The notes beneath the pieces were generated by a model. It did not search any database. It was not told the DNA's origin and saw nothing but the letters and a program-made list of their open reading frames with translations. From positions 186,001 through 250,000 of the forward strand of contig NZ_JAASQT010000002.1 in the NCBI RefSeq assembly GCF_011761985.1: a stretch of DNA of 64,000 nucleotides. The letters run 5' to 3'. The DNA is from Brevundimonas terrae (lineage in GTDB: Bacteria; Pseudomonadota; Alphaproteobacteria; Caulobacterales; Caulobacteraceae). Positions 55,064-61,575 of the stretch are shown here, one piece after another; positions within the stretch are counted from its first letter, which is position 1, and each line of letters opens with the position of its first letter. A program made the translations under genes and the position numbers.

Positions 55064-56437
55064 ATGAAAACCCTGTATTCCGAACGTGTGTTGTCCATCT
55101 GTGTAGCCGTCGCGGCGCTGGCGTTTCCGGCGCAGGCGATGGCGCAAATGCCCGAGGCTATTGCCAGCCAGCCCGCCCATCAGCGGGCGCTGGCGGCGGG
55201 CTATAAGGCGCTGACGGTCTGTAGCGCCCTGAAAACGGCCGAGGAGGCGGGAAGCTCGCGCACTGTCGCCAGTGTCGAGGCCAATGAACTGGTGGGCATC
55301 TATGCCGAGTTGGCCCCCATCATCGGTCATCTGGTCGCCGAGGTATCGGCACAGGGGGTGAGCGTAGCTTGGGACGATCAGGCCCCCGCCCGCGTGGCCA
55401 CATACCGTCCGGGGCAGGGCTGTGTGATCCAGCCGATGGGATATGTTTCCGGTTCGAACTTGGCCCCTGTCACGCGCCATTCGGATGCGAAAGACCTGCC
55501 GACCGGCGCGGTAGCGGGCGATGCTGTCGCCCTTGAGCGCGTGATCCAGAGCGCACTCACTCAAGGTTATGGCGCAGGCACCAATACGACCGGCGTGGTG
55601 GTTCTCCAGAACGGCAAGCGTGTTGCTGAATCCTATGCCGAAGGGTTCGGGCCGGACACGCCACAACGCACATGGTCGGTGGCCAAGAGTATTGCGGGCA
55701 CCCTGATCGGGGCGGCGGTCCAGCGCGGCGAGGTCAAGGTTTCGGACAGGGCGGATATCGCCAACTGGCAGATGGCCGGTGATCCCCGTGCGGCCATCAC
55801 CATCGAGAGCCTGATGCGGATGTCATCGGGCCTGACCAGCGACACGGCGGGTAACCGCACCGATGCCCTGTATTTTGGCGGCACGACCGCCGACGAACAG
55901 GCTGCGGGCTGGCCGCTGCTGCATCCGGTTGGCTCGACCTATCGCTATGCCAATAACGACACCCTGTTGGCGGTCATGGCGATTGCCAAGGGATTCGAGG
56001 TAAATCCACCCGCCGCCTTTTTTGACCGTCTGGGCATGAGCCGCACCTATGCCGAAACGGACTGGCGCGGGAACTATATCCTGTCCTCACAGGTCTGGAC
56101 GACGGCGCGCGACCTGTCGCGTCTGGGCCAGCTTTATCTGGATGACGGGGTTTGGGAGGGTGAGCGCATCCTGCCGCAAGGCTGGGGGGCGTTTGTATCG
56201 ACGCCTTCGGGGCCACAGCCGCCAACGGGCAATTTCGGTTATGGCGCGACCTTCTGGGTGTTTAACCGCTCGGACGGAGTGCCTGCCGATACCTATGCGG
56301 CCAATGGAAATCGCGGCCAGTATATTGTCATCATACCCAGCCGAAGGACCGTGATTGTGCGTCGCGGCGAGGACCCTGCGGGCAAGAGTTTCGATGTTGC
56401 GGCCTTCACCCGCGATGTTCTGGCGACATTGGATTGA
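55064..56437 (+). CDS. Secreted serine hydrolase, beta-lactamase/DD-peptidase family
   Basis: The 457-residue product has a signal peptide (about 1-28) and a serine beta-lactamase-like domain (Pfam Beta-lactamase) with S205-V-A-K208 in WSVAKS, a YAN motif near 295 and an HxG-like segment late in the protein. The N-terminal part (30-160) is an additional domain of unknown role with conserved-looking cysteines. Class C beta-lactamases, DD-peptidases and esterases share this fold, so the activity is not settled. It follows pepF by 48 bp. Confidence 0.87.
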   Translation: MKTLYSERVLSICVAVAALAFPAQAMAQMPEAIASQPAHQRALAAGYKALTVCSALKTAEEAGSSRTVASVEANELVGIYAELAPIIGHLVAEVSAQGVSVAWDDQAPARVATYRPGQGCVIQPMGYVSGSNLAPVTRHSDAKDLPTGAVAGDAVALERVIQSALTQGYGAGTNTTGVVVLQNGKRVAESYAEGFGPDTPQRTWSVAKSIAGTLIGAAVQRGEVKVSDRADIANWQMAGDPRAAITIESLMRMSSGLTSDTAGNRTDALYFGGTTADEQAAGWPLLHPVGSTYRYANNDTLLAVMAIAKGFEVNPPAAFFDRLGMSRTYAETDWRGNYILSSQVWTTARDLSRLGQLYLDDGVWEGERILPQGWGAFVSTPSGPQPPTGNFGYGATFWVFNRSDGVPADTYAANGNRGQYIVIIPSRRTVIVRRGEDPAGKSFDVAAFTRDVLATLD

Positions 56438-56512
56438 ACGAAGGCCTTGAGTGGCAGGAACTCGGCGCTATAAGACAACGTCGAAATCCTGACTCATTTT
56501 ACCGGAAGTCCC

Positions 56513-56764
56513 ATGGCTGACCAACACGCTGAAACCGCTCACGATCACGTCCACGGCAAGATGGAAACCTCGGCCCAGTCTTCGATGTACCTCTTGTTCC
56601 TCGAAATGGTGAAGTGGTGCTCGCTGTCCATGGCGGCCCTGATCCTGATGCTGGTGGTTTGGTTTGCCGTTGGTGCCGGTTTCATCGCCGGTTTTGTTTC
56701 GGCAGCGGTGGTCTCTGTCGTCGGTTTCTTTGCCCTGCGCGGTAAAAAGAGCGAACAACACTGA
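56513..56764 (+). CDS. aa3-type cytochrome c oxidase subunit IV
   Basis: The 83-residue protein has a His-rich N-terminal tail (ETAHDHVHGKMET) and two hydrophobic segments (about 34-55, 57-75), and matches the small bacterial subunit IV of aa3-type cytochrome c oxidases. The same small gene lies before pntAA in several alphaproteobacteria, as I recall. It ends at a terminator and is thus probably a separate transcript from the pnt genes. Confidence 0.88.
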   Translation: MADQHAETAHDHVHGKMETSAQSSMYLLFLEMVKWCSLSMAALILMLVVWFAVGAGFIAGFVSAAVVSVVGFFALRGKKSEQH

Positions 56765-56789
56765 GTTCAGGGCAGTTTCTGTCTTTGAA

Positions 56790-56819
56790 AAGGCCCGCTA
56801 GATGATGGCGGGCTTTTTT
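56790..56819 (+). terminator. Intrinsic terminator before pntAA
   Basis: A GC-rich stem (about 56793-56798 with 56808-56813, extended by A/T pairs) is followed by a T-run. It separates the cytochrome oxidase subunit gene from pntAA. Confidence 0.85.
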
Positions 56820-56903
56820 ATTGCGCGATTTGGCGTTGTCGCGCTTGATTGGCGCTCATGATTATCTAACACTGATTTTTGAGGGGAAATCAGGAGCAGA
56901 ATC

Positions 56904-58037
56904 TTGGCTATCGCCATTGCCGTAACCCGCGAGCGCCGCGAGGGGGAAACCCGTTGTGCCGCAACGCCGGAAACCGTGAAGAAGCTGCTGGCACTGGGGG
57001 CCAGTGTGACGGTCGAATCGGGGACCGGCGCGGGCTCGTCGATTTCGGACGCCGATTATGAGGCCGCAGGGGCCAAGGTCACATCCGATCTGGCGGCTGT
57101 TCTAGCCGGTGCCGATGTGTTGCTGAAAGTGCGCGGTCCCACCGCATCGGAAACCAGCGCCCTGAAATCGGGCACAGTTGTGGTCGGTATGCTGGACGCC
57201 TATCGCGACAAGGCGACGGTGGATGCCCTTAAAGGGCAGGGGGCCAGTGCCTTTGCCATGGAGTTTGTCCCGCGCATCACCCGCGCACAGGTGATGGATG
57301 TGCTGTCATCACAGGCCAACCTTGCCGGATATCGCGCGGTGATCGAGGCGGCCCATACCTATGGTCGCGGCTTTCCCATGATGATGACGGCAGCGGGTAC
57401 GGTGGCGGCGGCCAAGGTATTTGTCATGGGCGCAGGTGTGGCGGGGCTTCAGGCCATTGCCACGGCGCGGCGTCTGGGGGCGGTGGTCACCGCAACCGAT
57501 GTGCGCCCCGCCGCCAAGGAACAGGTCGAGAGCCTCGGGGCCAAGTTCGTGGCGGTCGAGGACGAAGAGTTCAAAGCTGCTGAAACGGCGGGCGGCTATG
57601 CCAAACAGATGTCGGCCGAATATCAGGCCAAACAGGCCGAACTGACCGCCAGCCACATTGTCAAACAGGATGTGGTCATCACCACGGCCCTGATCCCCGG
57701 ACGTGCTGCGCCTGTTCTGGTCACGGCGGCGCATGTGGCCTCGATGAAGGCGGGATCGGTGATTGTCGATCTGGCCGTCGAGGCGGGCGGCAATGTCGAA
57801 GGCTCAAAGCCCGACCAGATTGCCACCACAGCCAATGGCGTAAAGATTGTCGGCTGGAATAACATGGCCGGACGGATCGCCGCCGATGCCAGTGCGCTCT
57901 ATGCCCGTAACCTCGTGGCCTTTGTCGGCCTGATGGTGAAGGACGGGGTGCTGGCTATTGATCTGGAAGATGAAATCCTGAAAGCCGCCATGGTGACCCA
58001 TCAGGGGCAGGTGGTGCATGAGGGACTTGGAGGCTGA
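56904..58037 (+). CDS. pntAA: NAD(P)+ transhydrogenase subunit alpha, part 1 PntAA
   Basis: PntAA holds the NAD(H)-binding domain I of the proton-translocating transhydrogenase, which makes NADPH from NADH using the proton gradient. The 377-residue product begins [28 protein letters not shown], as in the family, and carries the Rossmann motif [19 protein letters not shown] and the typical SVNRYVED-like region is replaced by [20 protein letters not shown] 56904 has AGGAG at 56892-56896, seven bases before. The gene is followed after 2 bp by pntAB. The membrane part is split into PntAB, as usual in alphaproteobacteria. Confidence 0.96.
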
Positions 58038-58039
58038 AA

Positions 58040-58360
58040 ATGGAATACGTCGATCCTACCGTCTTTCGTCTAGCCATCTTCGTATTGGCCATTTTCGTGG
58101 GCTATTATGTGGTGTGGAGCGTCACGCCCGCCCTGCATACGCCGCTGATGGCGGTGACGAATGCCATTTCCTCGGTGATTATCGTCGGCGGCCTGATGGC
58201 GGCGGCGGCCTTTAGCGGGCAAGGGGTTGGCGGGGCACAGGCGTGGATTGCCAAGGGAGCCGGTATTGCGGCTGTCACCTTGGCCAGTGTGAATATTTTC
58301 GGCGGCTTCATGGTCACGCGCAGGATGCTGGCCATGTACCGCAAAAAGGATAAGCGTTGA
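58040..58360 (+). CDS. pntAB: NAD(P)+ transhydrogenase subunit alpha, part 2 PntAB
   Basis: This 106-residue membrane segment (domain II part) has three hydrophobic helices (about 11-30, 40-55 and 70-90) with the family core [24 protein letters not shown]. It forms part of the proton channel with PntB. It starts 2 bp after pntAA and overlaps the next frame at its stop. In most bacteria pntB follows directly, but here three extra genes intervene. Confidence 0.95.
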
Positions 58361-58362
58361 GT

Positions 58363-58650
58363 ATGGGTATGAGTATTTCACCGGCGTTGATCATCACCAT
58401 CATAGCGGTGGCGATTGCGCTGGTTCTGTTGCTGGTTGCGTTTGGAAGCCGTCTGCCGGAGCGTATGCGCCGGATCGTGGAGCTGTTGGTTTCGGTGGGT
58501 TATCCGGCGGTGGTCGGGCTGTTATTCGCCGGCTTGGGCCTAGAGCGCTACCAGAGTGGTGAAACGACACCTGCAATCGGTTTTGGAGTGGGGGCTGTGC
58601 TGATGGTTCTGTTGACGGTGCGGGCGATCCGCCGCCAGAGCAGGGCATGA
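58363..58650 (+). CDS. Small membrane protein of unknown function (pnt operon)
   Basis: I do not recognise this 95-residue protein. It has three hydrophobic segments (about 7-24, 38-55 and 65-82), with a basic loop between and an Arg-rich end (RAIRRQSRA). Start options are ATG 58363, ATG 58369 and TTG 58357, which overlaps the pntAB stop. Its stop overlaps the next ATG by 4 bp, so it is co-transcribed with pntAB. Its location suggests a link to the transhydrogenase, but nothing in the sequence proves it. Confidence 0.7.
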   Translation: MGMSISPALIITIIAVAIALVLLLVAFGSRLPERMRRIVELLVSVGYPAVVGLLFAGLGLERYQSGETTPAIGFGVGAVLMVLLTVRAIRRQSRA

Positions 58651-58931
58651 CGATGACGCCTGTCGAGGCTTCGATCTATCTGGCCTGGGGTTTGATTGCC
58701 TATGGGTTCGGCCTGTGGATGTGGAGCTGGAGCAAGGCGCTGCCACCACTGGTGCGACTGCGTTATCAAGACTGTGGCGTGGTGATCGTGTTCTCGGCCA
58801 ATCTGGCGCTTTATGCCCTGCGAGGCCGTGAACTGGGTTTTCTGGATTGGCTTCTGGTCATCCTCGGACCACTGTTCATAAGCTCTGCCTTATGGCGTCT
58901 GATCCGGACCCAGAGCTTTATCAAATCCTGA
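58647..58931 (+). CDS. Small membrane protein of unknown function (pnt operon)
   Basis: The 94-residue protein has three hydrophobic segments (about 8-26, 44-60 and 66-83), tryptophan-rich in the first (WGLIAYGFGLWMWSWSK). I do not recognise the family. Its ATG overlaps the preceding gene by 4 bp, and the following signal-peptide gene starts 17 bp later. All three genes between pntAB and pntB are on the same strand, so they are transcribed with the transhydrogenase. Confidence 0.7.
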   Translation: MTMTPVEASIYLAWGLIAYGFGLWMWSWSKALPPLVRLRYQDCGVVIVFSANLALYALRGRELGFLDWLLVILGPLFISSALWRLIRTQSFIKS

Positions 58932-58948
58932 CTGTGACTGAGTGAGTT

Positions 58949-59317
58949 ATGAAGACTGTTGTTTCGATTTTGACGGCTGGTGCGGCTCTGTTGGCCGCTT
59001 CTGTTGCGACGGCCCAGCCCAAGGAAGTGGCGGGTAATCTGGACGGTGGCCTGCCTTGGGCCGTGGCGGCGCAGGACGGTACTGCGTGGCGTCTGGAATG
59101 TCGTTTCCGTCCGGTCGCCATCCGTGGCGTCTATCAGAACCGCATGACCCGCGAGGGCAAGGGCGCATCGACGGGCAACCTGCCTGCGGACAACGGCAGC
59201 TGCACCCTGACCCGTCTGTCGGGCGAGGGAAATATCGGTGTGGCGCTCGTCAAAGACGGCACGCCTACGGCGGCGGGTTCCATCGGAACAACACCGGCGA
59301 TCATCAACGTCTTCTGA
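58949..59317 (+). CDS. Small exported protein of unknown function (pnt operon)
   Basis: The 122-residue protein has an N-terminal signal peptide (MKTVVSILTAGAALLAASVATA, cut near ATAQ) and a small periplasmic domain with two cysteines (LECRFRPV and GSCTLTRL), which could form a disulfide. I do not recognise the domain. It is 24 bp before pntB. A periplasmic protein encoded inside an inner-membrane proton pump operon is unusual. Confidence 0.72.
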   Translation: MKTVVSILTAGAALLAASVATAQPKEVAGNLDGGLPWAVAAQDGTAWRLECRFRPVAIRGVYQNRMTREGKGASTGNLPADNGSCTLTRLSGEGNIGVALVKDGTPTAAGSIGTTPAIINVF

Positions 59318-59341
59318 TCCGGGGATCAAGGGGGAGGGGTA

Positions 59342-60760
59342 ATGAAGGCTTCTATCGCAGCACTGGCCTATTTGGTGGCGGGGGTGCTGTTCATCCTCTC
59401 CCTTCGTGGCCTCTCCAGCCCCGAAACCAGCCGCCGTGGCAATATGCTCGGCATGACCGGCATGGCGCTGGCCATTGGCGTGACCCTTGCGCTGTTGGCC
59501 AGTACGGGTGCGCTTGATCCGGTGACGCTGGCCCTGATTGCGGGCGGCGTGATTGTCGGCGGCGGGGCAGGGGCGGTGATCGCCAACCGCGTGCCGATGA
59601 CGGCTATGCCGCAACTGGTGGCGGCGTTCCACTCTCTGGTGGGGATGGCGGCCTGTCTGGTGGCCGTGGGGGCGGTCTATGCGCCCGACGCCTTTGGCAT
59701 TGCGACTGTCTCTGGCGGCATCAAGACCCTGTCACTGGTCGAGTTAAGTCTCGGCGTGGCGATCGGGGCCATTACCTTTACCGGCTCGGTCATCGCCTTT
59801 GCCAAGCTGAACGGCAATATGAGCGGTGCGCCCATTCTGTTGCCCGCGCGTCATTTGATCAATATCGGGCTGCTGGCGGCGCTGGTGTTTCTGATCGGTA
59901 TTCTGATCGGGACGGGCGGCACGGCGATCTGGGCCTTCTGGCTGGTCTTTGCCATTGCGCTGGTTCTGGGTGCGACCCTGATTATTCCCATTGGCGGTGC
60001 GGACATGCCGGTGGTGGTGTCGATGCTCAACTCCTATTCGGGTTGGGCGGCGGCGGCGCTGGGCTTTACGCTGGAAAACATCGCGCTGATTATTACCGGC
60101 GCTCTGGTCGGCTCGTCGGGTGCGATCCTCAGCTACATCATGTGCAAGGGCATGAACCGCAGCTTCATCAGCGTGATCCTTGGCGGTTTCGGGGCCGATA
60201 CGACCGCCGGTGGCGGTGAAGGGCGTGTGGAAACGCGCCCTGTCAAACAAGGCTCTGCCGAAGACGCCGCCTTCATCATGAAGAACGCCTCCAAGGTCAT
60301 CATCGTGCCGGGTTACGGCATGGCGGTGGCGCAGGCCCAGCACGCCCTTCGTGAAATGGCCGACAAGCTCAAAGAAGAGGGCGTCGAGGTCAAATACGCC
60401 ATCCACCCTGTGGCAGGACGTATGCCAGGCCACATGAACGTGCTGCTGGCCGAGGCCAATGTGCCTTATGACGAGGTGTTCGAACTGGAAGACATCAACT
60501 CCGAGTTTGCCTCTGCCGATGTGGCCTTTGTCATCGGGGCCAATGACGTCACCAATCCTGCGGCCAAGACCGATCCGCAAAGCCCGATCTTCGGCATGCC
60601 CATTCTGGATGTCGAAAAGGCGGGCACGGTGCTGTTCGTCAAGCGCGGCATGGCGGCGGGCTATGCCGGTGTCGAGAACGAGTTGTTCTTCCGTGACAAC
60701 ACCATGATGCTGTTTGCCGATGCCAAGAAGATGGTCGAGGGCATCGTCAAAGGACTGTAG
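59342..60760 (+). CDS. pntB: NAD(P)+ transhydrogenase subunit beta PntB
   Basis: PntB contains the membrane domain II part and the NADP(H)-binding domain III. The 472-residue product has about eight hydrophobic helices followed by a soluble domain with the NADPH-binding motif GYGMAVAQAQHALREMADKL near 325 and KYAIHPVAGRMPGHMNVLLAEA, and ends near MVEGIVKGL. It pairs with PntAA and PntAB, whose genes lie upstream. The length is normal for the family. Confidence 0.97.
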   Translation: MKASIAALAYLVAGVLFILSLRGLSSPETSRRGNMLGMTGMALAIGVTLALLASTGALDPVTLALIAGGVIVGGGAGAVIANRVPMTAMPQLVAAFHSLVGMAACLVAVGAVYAPDAFGIATVSGGIKTLSLVELSLGVAIGAITFTGSVIAFAKLNGNMSGAPILLPARHLINIGLLAALVFLIGILIGTGGTAIWAFWLVFAIALVLGATLIIPIGGADMPVVVSMLNSYSGWAAAALGFTLENIALIITGALVGSSGAILSYIMCKGMNRSFISVILGGFGADTTAGGGEGRVETRPVKQGSAEDAAFIMKNASKVIIVPGYGMAVAQAQHALREMADKLKEEGVEVKYAIHPVAGRMPGHMNVLLAEANVPYDEVFELEDINSEFASADVAFVIGANDVTNPAAKTDPQSPIFGMPILDVEKAGTVLFVKRGMAAGYAGVENELFFRDNTMMLFADAKKMVEGIVKGL

Positions 60761-60828
60761 ATTTTGCCGAACCAATACCCGCCAAAGGCGTTGGTAGGCG
60801 TTGTCATAAAGTAGGCTTTGGAGGGGCT

Positions 60829-61575
60829 ATGACCGTTCGCGCAATGATGAAGACCGTGGCTGTGGCAGGTGGCATTCTGGCACTGGCCGCCTGTGGCTCG
60901 AAAGAGGATGCCGCCAAACCGGCCGAGGCGGCGGTGACGGTGGCAGAGGCGGATGCCACAGAGGCCGTCGCCGATACGGCGGCTGCGCCTCAGGCTGCTG
61001 CGGGCGGTGTGCTGATGGATGCCATGATGGGTGTTCAGGTGGCCTATCTGGAATCCAAACTGGGTCCGGCACGCAATGTGTCGGGCGATGAGCGGACCTA
61101 TGAAATCGGTGGTTGCCGCGTCAGGGTTCACACCGACGACAACGAGGTTACAGGCTATATCGTGCCGATGACCCAGCCCTGTTCCGCACAGGCCATGGCC
61201 GCGCTCAAGGCGTTTGATCTGCCGCAGAAGCTGAACCTGACCATGGGCGAGTTTGCGACCAGCCGTGACAATACAAGGTTCAAGGCCGATTGCCTGACGC
61301 TGTGCGGTAATGCCGCCGACCCGTGGGTCTATCTGGAAAGCGAAGGTTTGCGTTCCATGCCGGGGATCCGTGCAGGGGCCGTACTGGTCGGCGATGCCAC
61401 GATTGATGCGTCCTTCCGTATTCGCGATGCCATCAAGGCCAAGATGGGCGAGGACTATGTGGTCGATGCCGGTTTCAACTGCACGACCGAGTTCAATGCT
61501 CTGGCCCAGCGCGAGCTGAAAGATGTCCGCATTGACGAGATCGAGGTGGGCTATACGCCGCTGGGTCGTTGCTGA
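60829..61575 (+). CDS. Lipoprotein of unknown function
   Basis: The 248-residue product has a signal peptide with lipobox LAAC (Cys22) followed by an Ala/Glu-rich, low-complexity stretch (about 25-58) that may span the periplasm. A cysteine-containing domain follows, with C residues in GGCRVRV, TQPCSA, DCLTLCGN, NCTTEF and GRC. I do not recognise a family. It lies 68 bp after pntB. It shares its lipoprotein nature with the next gene. Confidence 0.78.
   Translation: MTVRAMMKTVAVAGGILALAACGSKEDAAKPAEAAVTVAEADATEAVADTAAAPQAAAGGVLMDAMMGVQVAYLESKLGPARNVSGDERTYEIGGCRVRVHTDDNEVTGYIVPMTQPCSAQAMAALKAFDLPQKLNLTMGEFATSRDNTRFKADCLTLCGNAADPWVYLESEGLRSMPGIRAGAVLVGDATIDASFRIRDAIKAKMGEDYVVDAGFNCTTEFNALAQRELKDVRIDEIEVGYTPLGRC

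Follow-up and report, generated by a model that had tools for sequence, protein, structure and literature searches.

Why should an operon for a proton-translocating transhydrogenase carry three additional small genes in the middle of its core subunits? We address this question for a window of 64,000 nucleotides from Brevundimonas terrae (by the window, we mean this whole stretch of DNA). The transhydrogenase has been described as universally conserved and as built of three domains, which are carried by a single polypeptide in human, by two in E. coli and by three in Thermus thermophilus (PMC5742237). According to this description, the operon of the window follows the last arrangement, with PntAA, PntAB and PntB as common core subunits and a domain II that is shared between the small PntAB and PntB. 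We will examine how the small genes are distributed, how they evolve and what else is found at the same sites. The reading that we favour, and to which we give an even chance of being right, is that the product of one of them, gene B, serves the membrane domain of the transhydrogenase as a dedicated accessory subunit or assembly factor, the two others, genes A and C, being optional additions.

The pnt operon of the window

In the window, the operon opens with pntAA (56904-58037, + strand), which has a TTG start and encodes the NAD(H)-binding domain I subunit, with matches to the Pfam models AlaDh_PNT_N/C above the cut-off. After 2 bp comes pntAB (58040-58360, +; 106 aa; Pfam PNTB_4TM, E 1.4e-32), which provides the first transmembrane helices of domain II, while pntB (59342-60760, +; Pfam PNTB, E 3.2e-193) provides the remaining membrane helices and the NADP(H)-binding domain III. 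Between these two lie gene A (58363-58650, +; 95 aa) and gene B (58647-58931, +; 94 aa), each encoding a three-helix membrane protein, followed by gene C (58949-59317, +; 122 aa), which encodes an exported beta-sandwich protein. B will turn out to be the core member of this set, and A and C optional ones. From pntAB to pntB, the successive spacings are 2, -4, 17 and 24 bp. Alternative starts are available for A (TTG 58357, which gives a 4 bp overlap with the pntAB stop) and, further downstream, for B (ATG 58653). Just 5' of pntAA, positions 56513-56764 (+) encode a small protein matching COX4_pro_2, a family of aa3 cytochrome oxidase subunit IV.

The first-pass annotation of this DNA had described a tightly coupled insert of three genes on one strand, encoding two three-helix membrane proteins and a small exported protein with two cysteines. 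The coordinates of the reading frames bear out this layout, and the protein types also hold: A has three hydrophobic segments, B three modelled helices, and C a hydrophobic N-terminus and two cysteines. None of the three proteins of the window scores above a Pfam or NCBIfam cut-off, and there is no Rfam match within 56000-61200. A scan for promoters and terminators was uninformative, with 2 promoter-like sequences against 1.5 in shuffles, and 11 terminator-like ones, many of them inside genes, against 4.6. Chance open reading frames were considered for A, B and C and ruled out, because the three have relatives in tens of species, their substitutions are biased towards the third codon position, and the dN/dS of B is low. 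Within the window's close trio, the differences at first, second and third codon positions amount to 120/96/178 for A, 84/48/129 for B and 75/37/155 for C.

The pntAB-pntB junction in Brevundimonas and its relatives

The distance between pntAB and pntB was obtained from paired protein matches, and the survey of the family (192 and 191 genomes with a match) paired 120 operons among the matches listed. Of the 40 operons measured in Brevundimonas, 39 have between 295 and 1311 bp between the two genes. The sole exception, in genome G145, has pntAB and pntB abutting in an otherwise intact operon that is devoid of B. The insertion at this junction is a genus-wide trait of Brevundimonas. Elsewhere in the family, 25 of 80 operons have at least 190 bp at the same place. 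The other families of the class are unlike Brevundimonas in this respect, 110 of their 119 operons having at most 100 bp, which leaves no room for a gene such as A, B or C. Seven of the 119 have at least 200 bp, but truly only six, the 541 bp of G368 being the artefact of a partial PntB match. Nine inserts of at least 100 bp are found outside the family, and the eight that are left without this artefact gave no match to the profiles of A, B or C, of further junction families that we term D, E and F, or of a nucleotidyltransferase/HepT pair that will be discussed below. The statement that pntAB and pntB are normally adjacent thus stands for the other families of the class and fails for Brevundimonas itself. 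The small genes are not confined to one strain either, since their relatives occur in tens of species.

Gene B is linked to the transhydrogenase operon

A profile search found B in 40 of 199 genomes of the family, with one match each, always at pnt (40/40), and B is present in 39 of the 40 Brevundimonas genomes. When a collection of 84,980 species was scanned with a pattern, 86 stretches encoding a B relative came up, and in the best 80 of these 86, B is flanked by pntAB and pntB in 80 cases out of 80; in three of them (L110, L132 and L177), the pattern match starts elsewhere in the locus, and the profile scan still puts B in the junction. Searches of plasmids found none of A, B and C, and a search of viral contigs did not find B. 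In the searches made, B is therefore linked to the transhydrogenase operon only. The profiles were built from members located at pnt and at most 22-28 candidates were scored per genome, so that remote copies of A, B, C, or of the family S described further below, could be missed outside pnt. One genome, G181, has a second and divergent PntB (46% identity; L193, G181:C1:2602592-2603953), and its single B match lies in the main operon.

A different explanation of this distribution would make the small genes passengers: a permissive and well-expressed pnt operon would capture small genes at both of its junctions, and they would be kept for the sake of co-expression and not for any contact with the enzyme. 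We regard this as possible, without expecting it to be the answer. It fits with the intact operon of G145, which does without B, and with most other genera, whose pnt operons lack B as well. It fits less well with the location of the genes, since free passengers would be expected elsewhere too, while all B matches, 17 of 17 strong A matches and 13 of 13 strong S matches are at pnt. In a midpoint-rooted PntB tree, the sister lineage G066, in which both B and C are present, splits off before G145, and G145 before the remaining genus. On this tree, the lack of B in G145 is most simply read as a single loss, two gains being possible.

B is also tightly coupled to its upstream neighbour: 34 of 41 Brevundimonas B genes start in a 4-bp overlap with the preceding gene, namely 21 of the 26 that follow pntAB and 13 of the 15 that follow A. 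The starts in this count were chosen by script, and the B of the window, to which the later ATG at 58653 was given, is not among the 34. Such coupling could by itself be what is selected, the small genes setting the timing or the ratio of PntAB and PntB synthesis through translational coupling, with protein products that matter little. The lengths of the Brevundimonas inserts, which cluster near 300, 600-730 and 980-1030 bp, would suit this idea. We nevertheless find it unlikely, because conservation is seen at the protein level, with eight residues invariant in 29 aligned B sequences (G20, R39, D42, L53, W68, R84, L85 and T88) and two cysteines invariant in 19 C sequences, and because the dN/dS of B is low in close pairs.

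Indeed, B is under purifying selection in close pairs, with a median dN/dS of 0.128 over 74 such pairs, which are not independent of one another; the corresponding medians are 0.220 for pntAB and 0.178 for pntB. Close pairs number 2 for A and 4 for C (dN/dS of 0.33 and 0.16), which is too few for these values to say much. When all pairs with dS <1.2 are taken, the medians rise to 0.82 for A, 0.56 for B (720 pairs) and 0.59 for C, against 0.20 for pntAB and 0.17 for pntB. The median identities within the genus are likewise 27% for A, 51% for B and 45% for C, against 89% for pntAB and 90% for PntB. The small genes thus change much faster than the core ones, and this fast evolution over larger distances counts in favour of the passenger explanation.

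The AlphaFold2 model of B consists of three helices (residues 5-29, 34-58 and 65-91; mean pLDDT 88.9). From the positive-inside rule, we infer that its N terminus is outside and that R39, D42 and R84 lie near the cytoplasmic face. A fold search with this model returned generic helix-bundle matches, none of them standing out, and this is not evidence of a new fold. The family DUF202 (PF02656) is matched by 4 of 29 B members with E values of 0.1 or below (the best being 8.3e-5); among ten members that were rescanned, one matched, at 15.2 bits for a cut-off of 23.4, and the B of the window had no DUF202 match. The helix-loop-helix pattern is similar to that of the core subunits, and an origin of A or B as a duplicated piece of PntB or PntAB was considered and rejected for want of profile support: hhalign probabilities of A and B against PntAB and PntB are at most 2.7%, and the Pfam PNT models match the core genes only. 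Sequence searches against solved structures with three alignments returned nothing useful.

Genes A and C are optional

Most copies of A and C are tied to the pnt operon as well, but their occurrence is patchy, different species apparently swapping or losing them. In the profile search, A gave 17 strong matches in 16 of 199 family genomes, that of the window included, all 17 of them at pnt. Nine further matches, with E values between 1e-4 and 1e-3 and in long frames that belong to another genus, were left out of the A members. Single A relatives have weak Pfam matches, to YhhN (9.6e-5) and to NnrU (1.3e-4), for one member each of 18. C gave 23 matches in 20 of 199 family genomes, of which 20 are at pnt and 3 elsewhere, and these three outside copies count against the reading that we favour.

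The protein encoded by C is modelled as an eight-stranded beta-sandwich (block pLDDT 86-96 from residue 31) behind a signal-like N-terminal segment of low confidence. Its residues C51 and C85 are the two cysteines that are invariant in the 19 aligned sequences. Against Pfam, the 19 C relatives show single weak matches to DUF families at most. At the head of its structural neighbours stand two MmpS5 proteins, with a similar beta-sandwich arrangement (8em5_A: Z 8.7, rmsd 2.9, 83 aligned residues; 9mvz_A: Z 8.0, rmsd 3.4, 87 aligned residues). MmpS proteins are the periplasmic partners of MmpL transporters and are encoded with them, whereas the neighbours of C are B and pntB and not mmpL. The two also differ in sequence, with an identity of 7-10%, a Foldseek E above 0.2 (0.29) and no Pfam family for the C of the window. 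Since such Z values can reflect a common arrangement, we take this likeness as one of shape only.

What else is found at the junction

When iterated profiles were run on the reading frames at this junction in 73 genomes, 42 genomes turned out to have B, 18 to have A (in 19 copies) and 21 to have C; two genomes, G027 and G045, entered this count through a search with A, so that A is slightly over-represented there. With later profiles, the 41 Brevundimonas genomes that have B are distributed between B alone (15), AB (8), ABC (6), BC (6), B with the nucleotidyltransferase/HepT pair (4), AABC (1) and DB (1). The best 80 of the 86 loci of the species collection give a comparable range: B alone (36), BC (15), B with the pair (10), AB (7), ABC (6), BC with the pair (2), and one each of AABC, ADBC, DB and DBC. 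These two samples overlap, and their counts are not independent. The order of the arrays in Brevundimonas is regular, A or D coming before B, C after it and the nucleotidyltransferase/HepT pair last, and the sister lineage G066 has the order D-C-B. Outside Brevundimonas, other genera have D, C, relatives of A, the nucleotidyltransferase/HepT pair or other small proteins at this place. We considered whether A, B, D, E and F could be one diverged family and rejected this for lack of profile support, the best pair, B and D, reaching a probability of 10.6%; family E is represented by 2 sequences and family F by 3. A conserved protein of about 290-310 aa (a 296-aa insert) is found between pntAB and pntB in another genus of the family, where five genomes have it (L085-L087, L089 and L090). 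By eye it looked like a methyltransferase, and the one copy scanned had no Pfam match.

Of the pairs of a nucleotidyltransferase and a HepT-like protein, one was confirmed by Pfam and the others were found with profiles seeded on such a pair. The pair was observed between pntAB and pntB in L015, L016, L017, L024 and L103, and in collection loci such as L115, L117, L121 and L125. In total, 12 of the best 80 collection loci have it, after B wherever B is present, and G070 has the pair without B. Relatives of HepT were found in 5 plasmid records. The occurrence of this pair in some relatives could suggest that A, B and C belong to a defence or toxin-antitoxin islet parked in the pnt operon. We find this hardly credible, considering that none of the three matches a PADLOC family, that their single PHROG match (A, E 0.026) is to a family without function, and that B does not behave as a mobile defence module, since nearly all genomes of the genus have it and searches of plasmids and viral contigs gave no copy. 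In favour of the passenger explanation, the pair is a stand-alone family with relatives on plasmids, the content of the junction varies, and the several small membrane families gathered there (A, B, D, E and F) have no detectable relation to one another.

The first junction and two control operons

The pntAB-pntB junction is not the only one to be filled. The window has 2 bp between pntAA and pntAB, while inserts of at least 100 bp are found there in 22 of 40 Brevundimonas genomes and in 54 of 78 collection loci. These inserts were read in 21 of the 22 genomes, within 37 loci picked for their long inserts, and all 21 contain an open reading frame of at least 57 aa whose start is no more than 4 bases away from the stop of pntAA (with a 4-bp overlap in 19 cases and directly after the stop in 2). 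Most of them look like small membrane proteins and at least two are DUF559-like; some may not be real genes, for instance the frame of 57 aa in G181. This first junction is filled in loci within L035-L068 and L105-L184, for example by family S, whose proteins end in LLSIDARLE. In the 199 genomes, 13 of 13 strong S matches lie within 600 bp upstream of pntAB; of the weak matches, which were not counted as members, two are away from pnt and one is just upstream of pntAB.

The DUF559-type frames at pntAA-pntAB (L047, L063, L106, L121, L154, L172 and L181) carry repeat-like N-terminal peptides (SPFPLDGGRVG ... PSQPSPVEGEG), and several of them open with an apparent copy of the pntAB start (MEHVD/MEHVE). 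From their sequences, it looks as if a mobile repeat element had been inserted at the start of pntAB. One case was tested, and its protein matches DUF559 in Pfam with an E of 2.8e-26.

Since inserts are found at pntAA-pntAB too, the pnt operon is generally prone to the gain of small genes. For the passenger explanation, this is a further point in its favour: content varies at both junctions, a second stand-alone family (DUF559) is found there, and the operon may simply tolerate insertions. To set this against other energy operons of the genus, we looked at loci around nuoK (PF00420) and atpE (PF00137), taking the best 30 of the 39 and of the 38 genomes with a match. Apart from nuoK and atpE themselves, the neighbouring genes are presumed, from gene order, to be those of the nuo and atp operons. 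With 28-30 loci per junction, no gap of at least 190 bp is seen at the two junctions at nuoK or at the four at atpE. Downstream of nuoK, two junctions are omitted because the next gene runs past the end of the locus. Gaps of 100-142 bp occur at two of the six (7 of 29 loci at one, 11 of 30 at the other). The gain of small genes is thus not a general habit of the genus, and the lack of inserts of at least 190 bp at six junctions of two other energy operons speaks against passengers.

B as a possible accessory part of the transhydrogenase

The first-pass annotation had left the choice between accessory subunits or regulators of the transhydrogenase and passengers. For B, the accessory option is now the favoured one, on the strength of its restriction to pnt, its presence in nearly all Brevundimonas genomes, its coupling and its purifying selection; the passenger option is the less probable of the two. 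In favour of a dedicated role, small membrane families that are unrelated to one another are confined to a single operon, and B is kept almost universally, while the passengers visible at the same sites, the fast evolution and the patchiness of A and C argue for caution.

If B is such a subunit or assembly factor, the pnt operon would encode a transhydrogenase with lineage-specific extra subunits. B would insert with its N terminus outside and its C terminus inside and, because its gene sits between those of two subunits that must meet, it would pack against the PntAB/PntB membrane domain during assembly. It would then stabilise or tune the proton-coupled hydride transfer. By the topology proposed above, the invariant charged residues R39, D42 and R84 would be placed towards the cytoplasm, on the side on which domain III docks. 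As optional members, A would serve as a second membrane partner and C as a periplasmic cap, the latter held by a disulfide between C51 and C85.

Small lineage-specific membrane proteins that are added to a conserved core enzyme are familiar from the respiratory complexes, where they are termed supernumerary or accessory subunits. On the evidence of gene linkage, A, B and C may be likened to them. An extra membrane part at this place would be structurally plausible, as the number of transhydrogenase helices is described as varying between 12, 13 and 14, the human enzyme having the extra TM1 and TM5 (PMC5742237). From the helix numbering, the human TM5 would correspond to the pntAB-pntB gene boundary. 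Among the open-access papers searched, we found no description of such genes in a transhydrogenase operon. If B is a subunit, it would be, to our knowledge, the first extra one of a transhydrogenase.

A broader proposal, which we put forward tentatively, is that Brevundimonas and its close kin have a transhydrogenase of more than three subunits, with a near-obligate B at the PntAB-PntB interface, swappable A or D and S, and C as a cap. In such an enzyme, A or D would be placed after pntAB and S after pntAA, and C would be disulfide-bonded. This would be a bacterial ion-coupled enzyme that continually gains and replaces supernumerary subunits at the junctions of its operon.

What the small genes mean depends on which reading holds. 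Should B be a subunit, it could be used to learn how the transhydrogenase couples its membrane domain to its nucleotide domains. Should the genes be passengers, nature would still offer here an unusually clear example of small genes being captured repeatedly within a conserved bioenergetic operon, a process to which the two control operons of the same genus are much less subject. In either reading, several uncharacterised protein families gain a context in which they can be tested.
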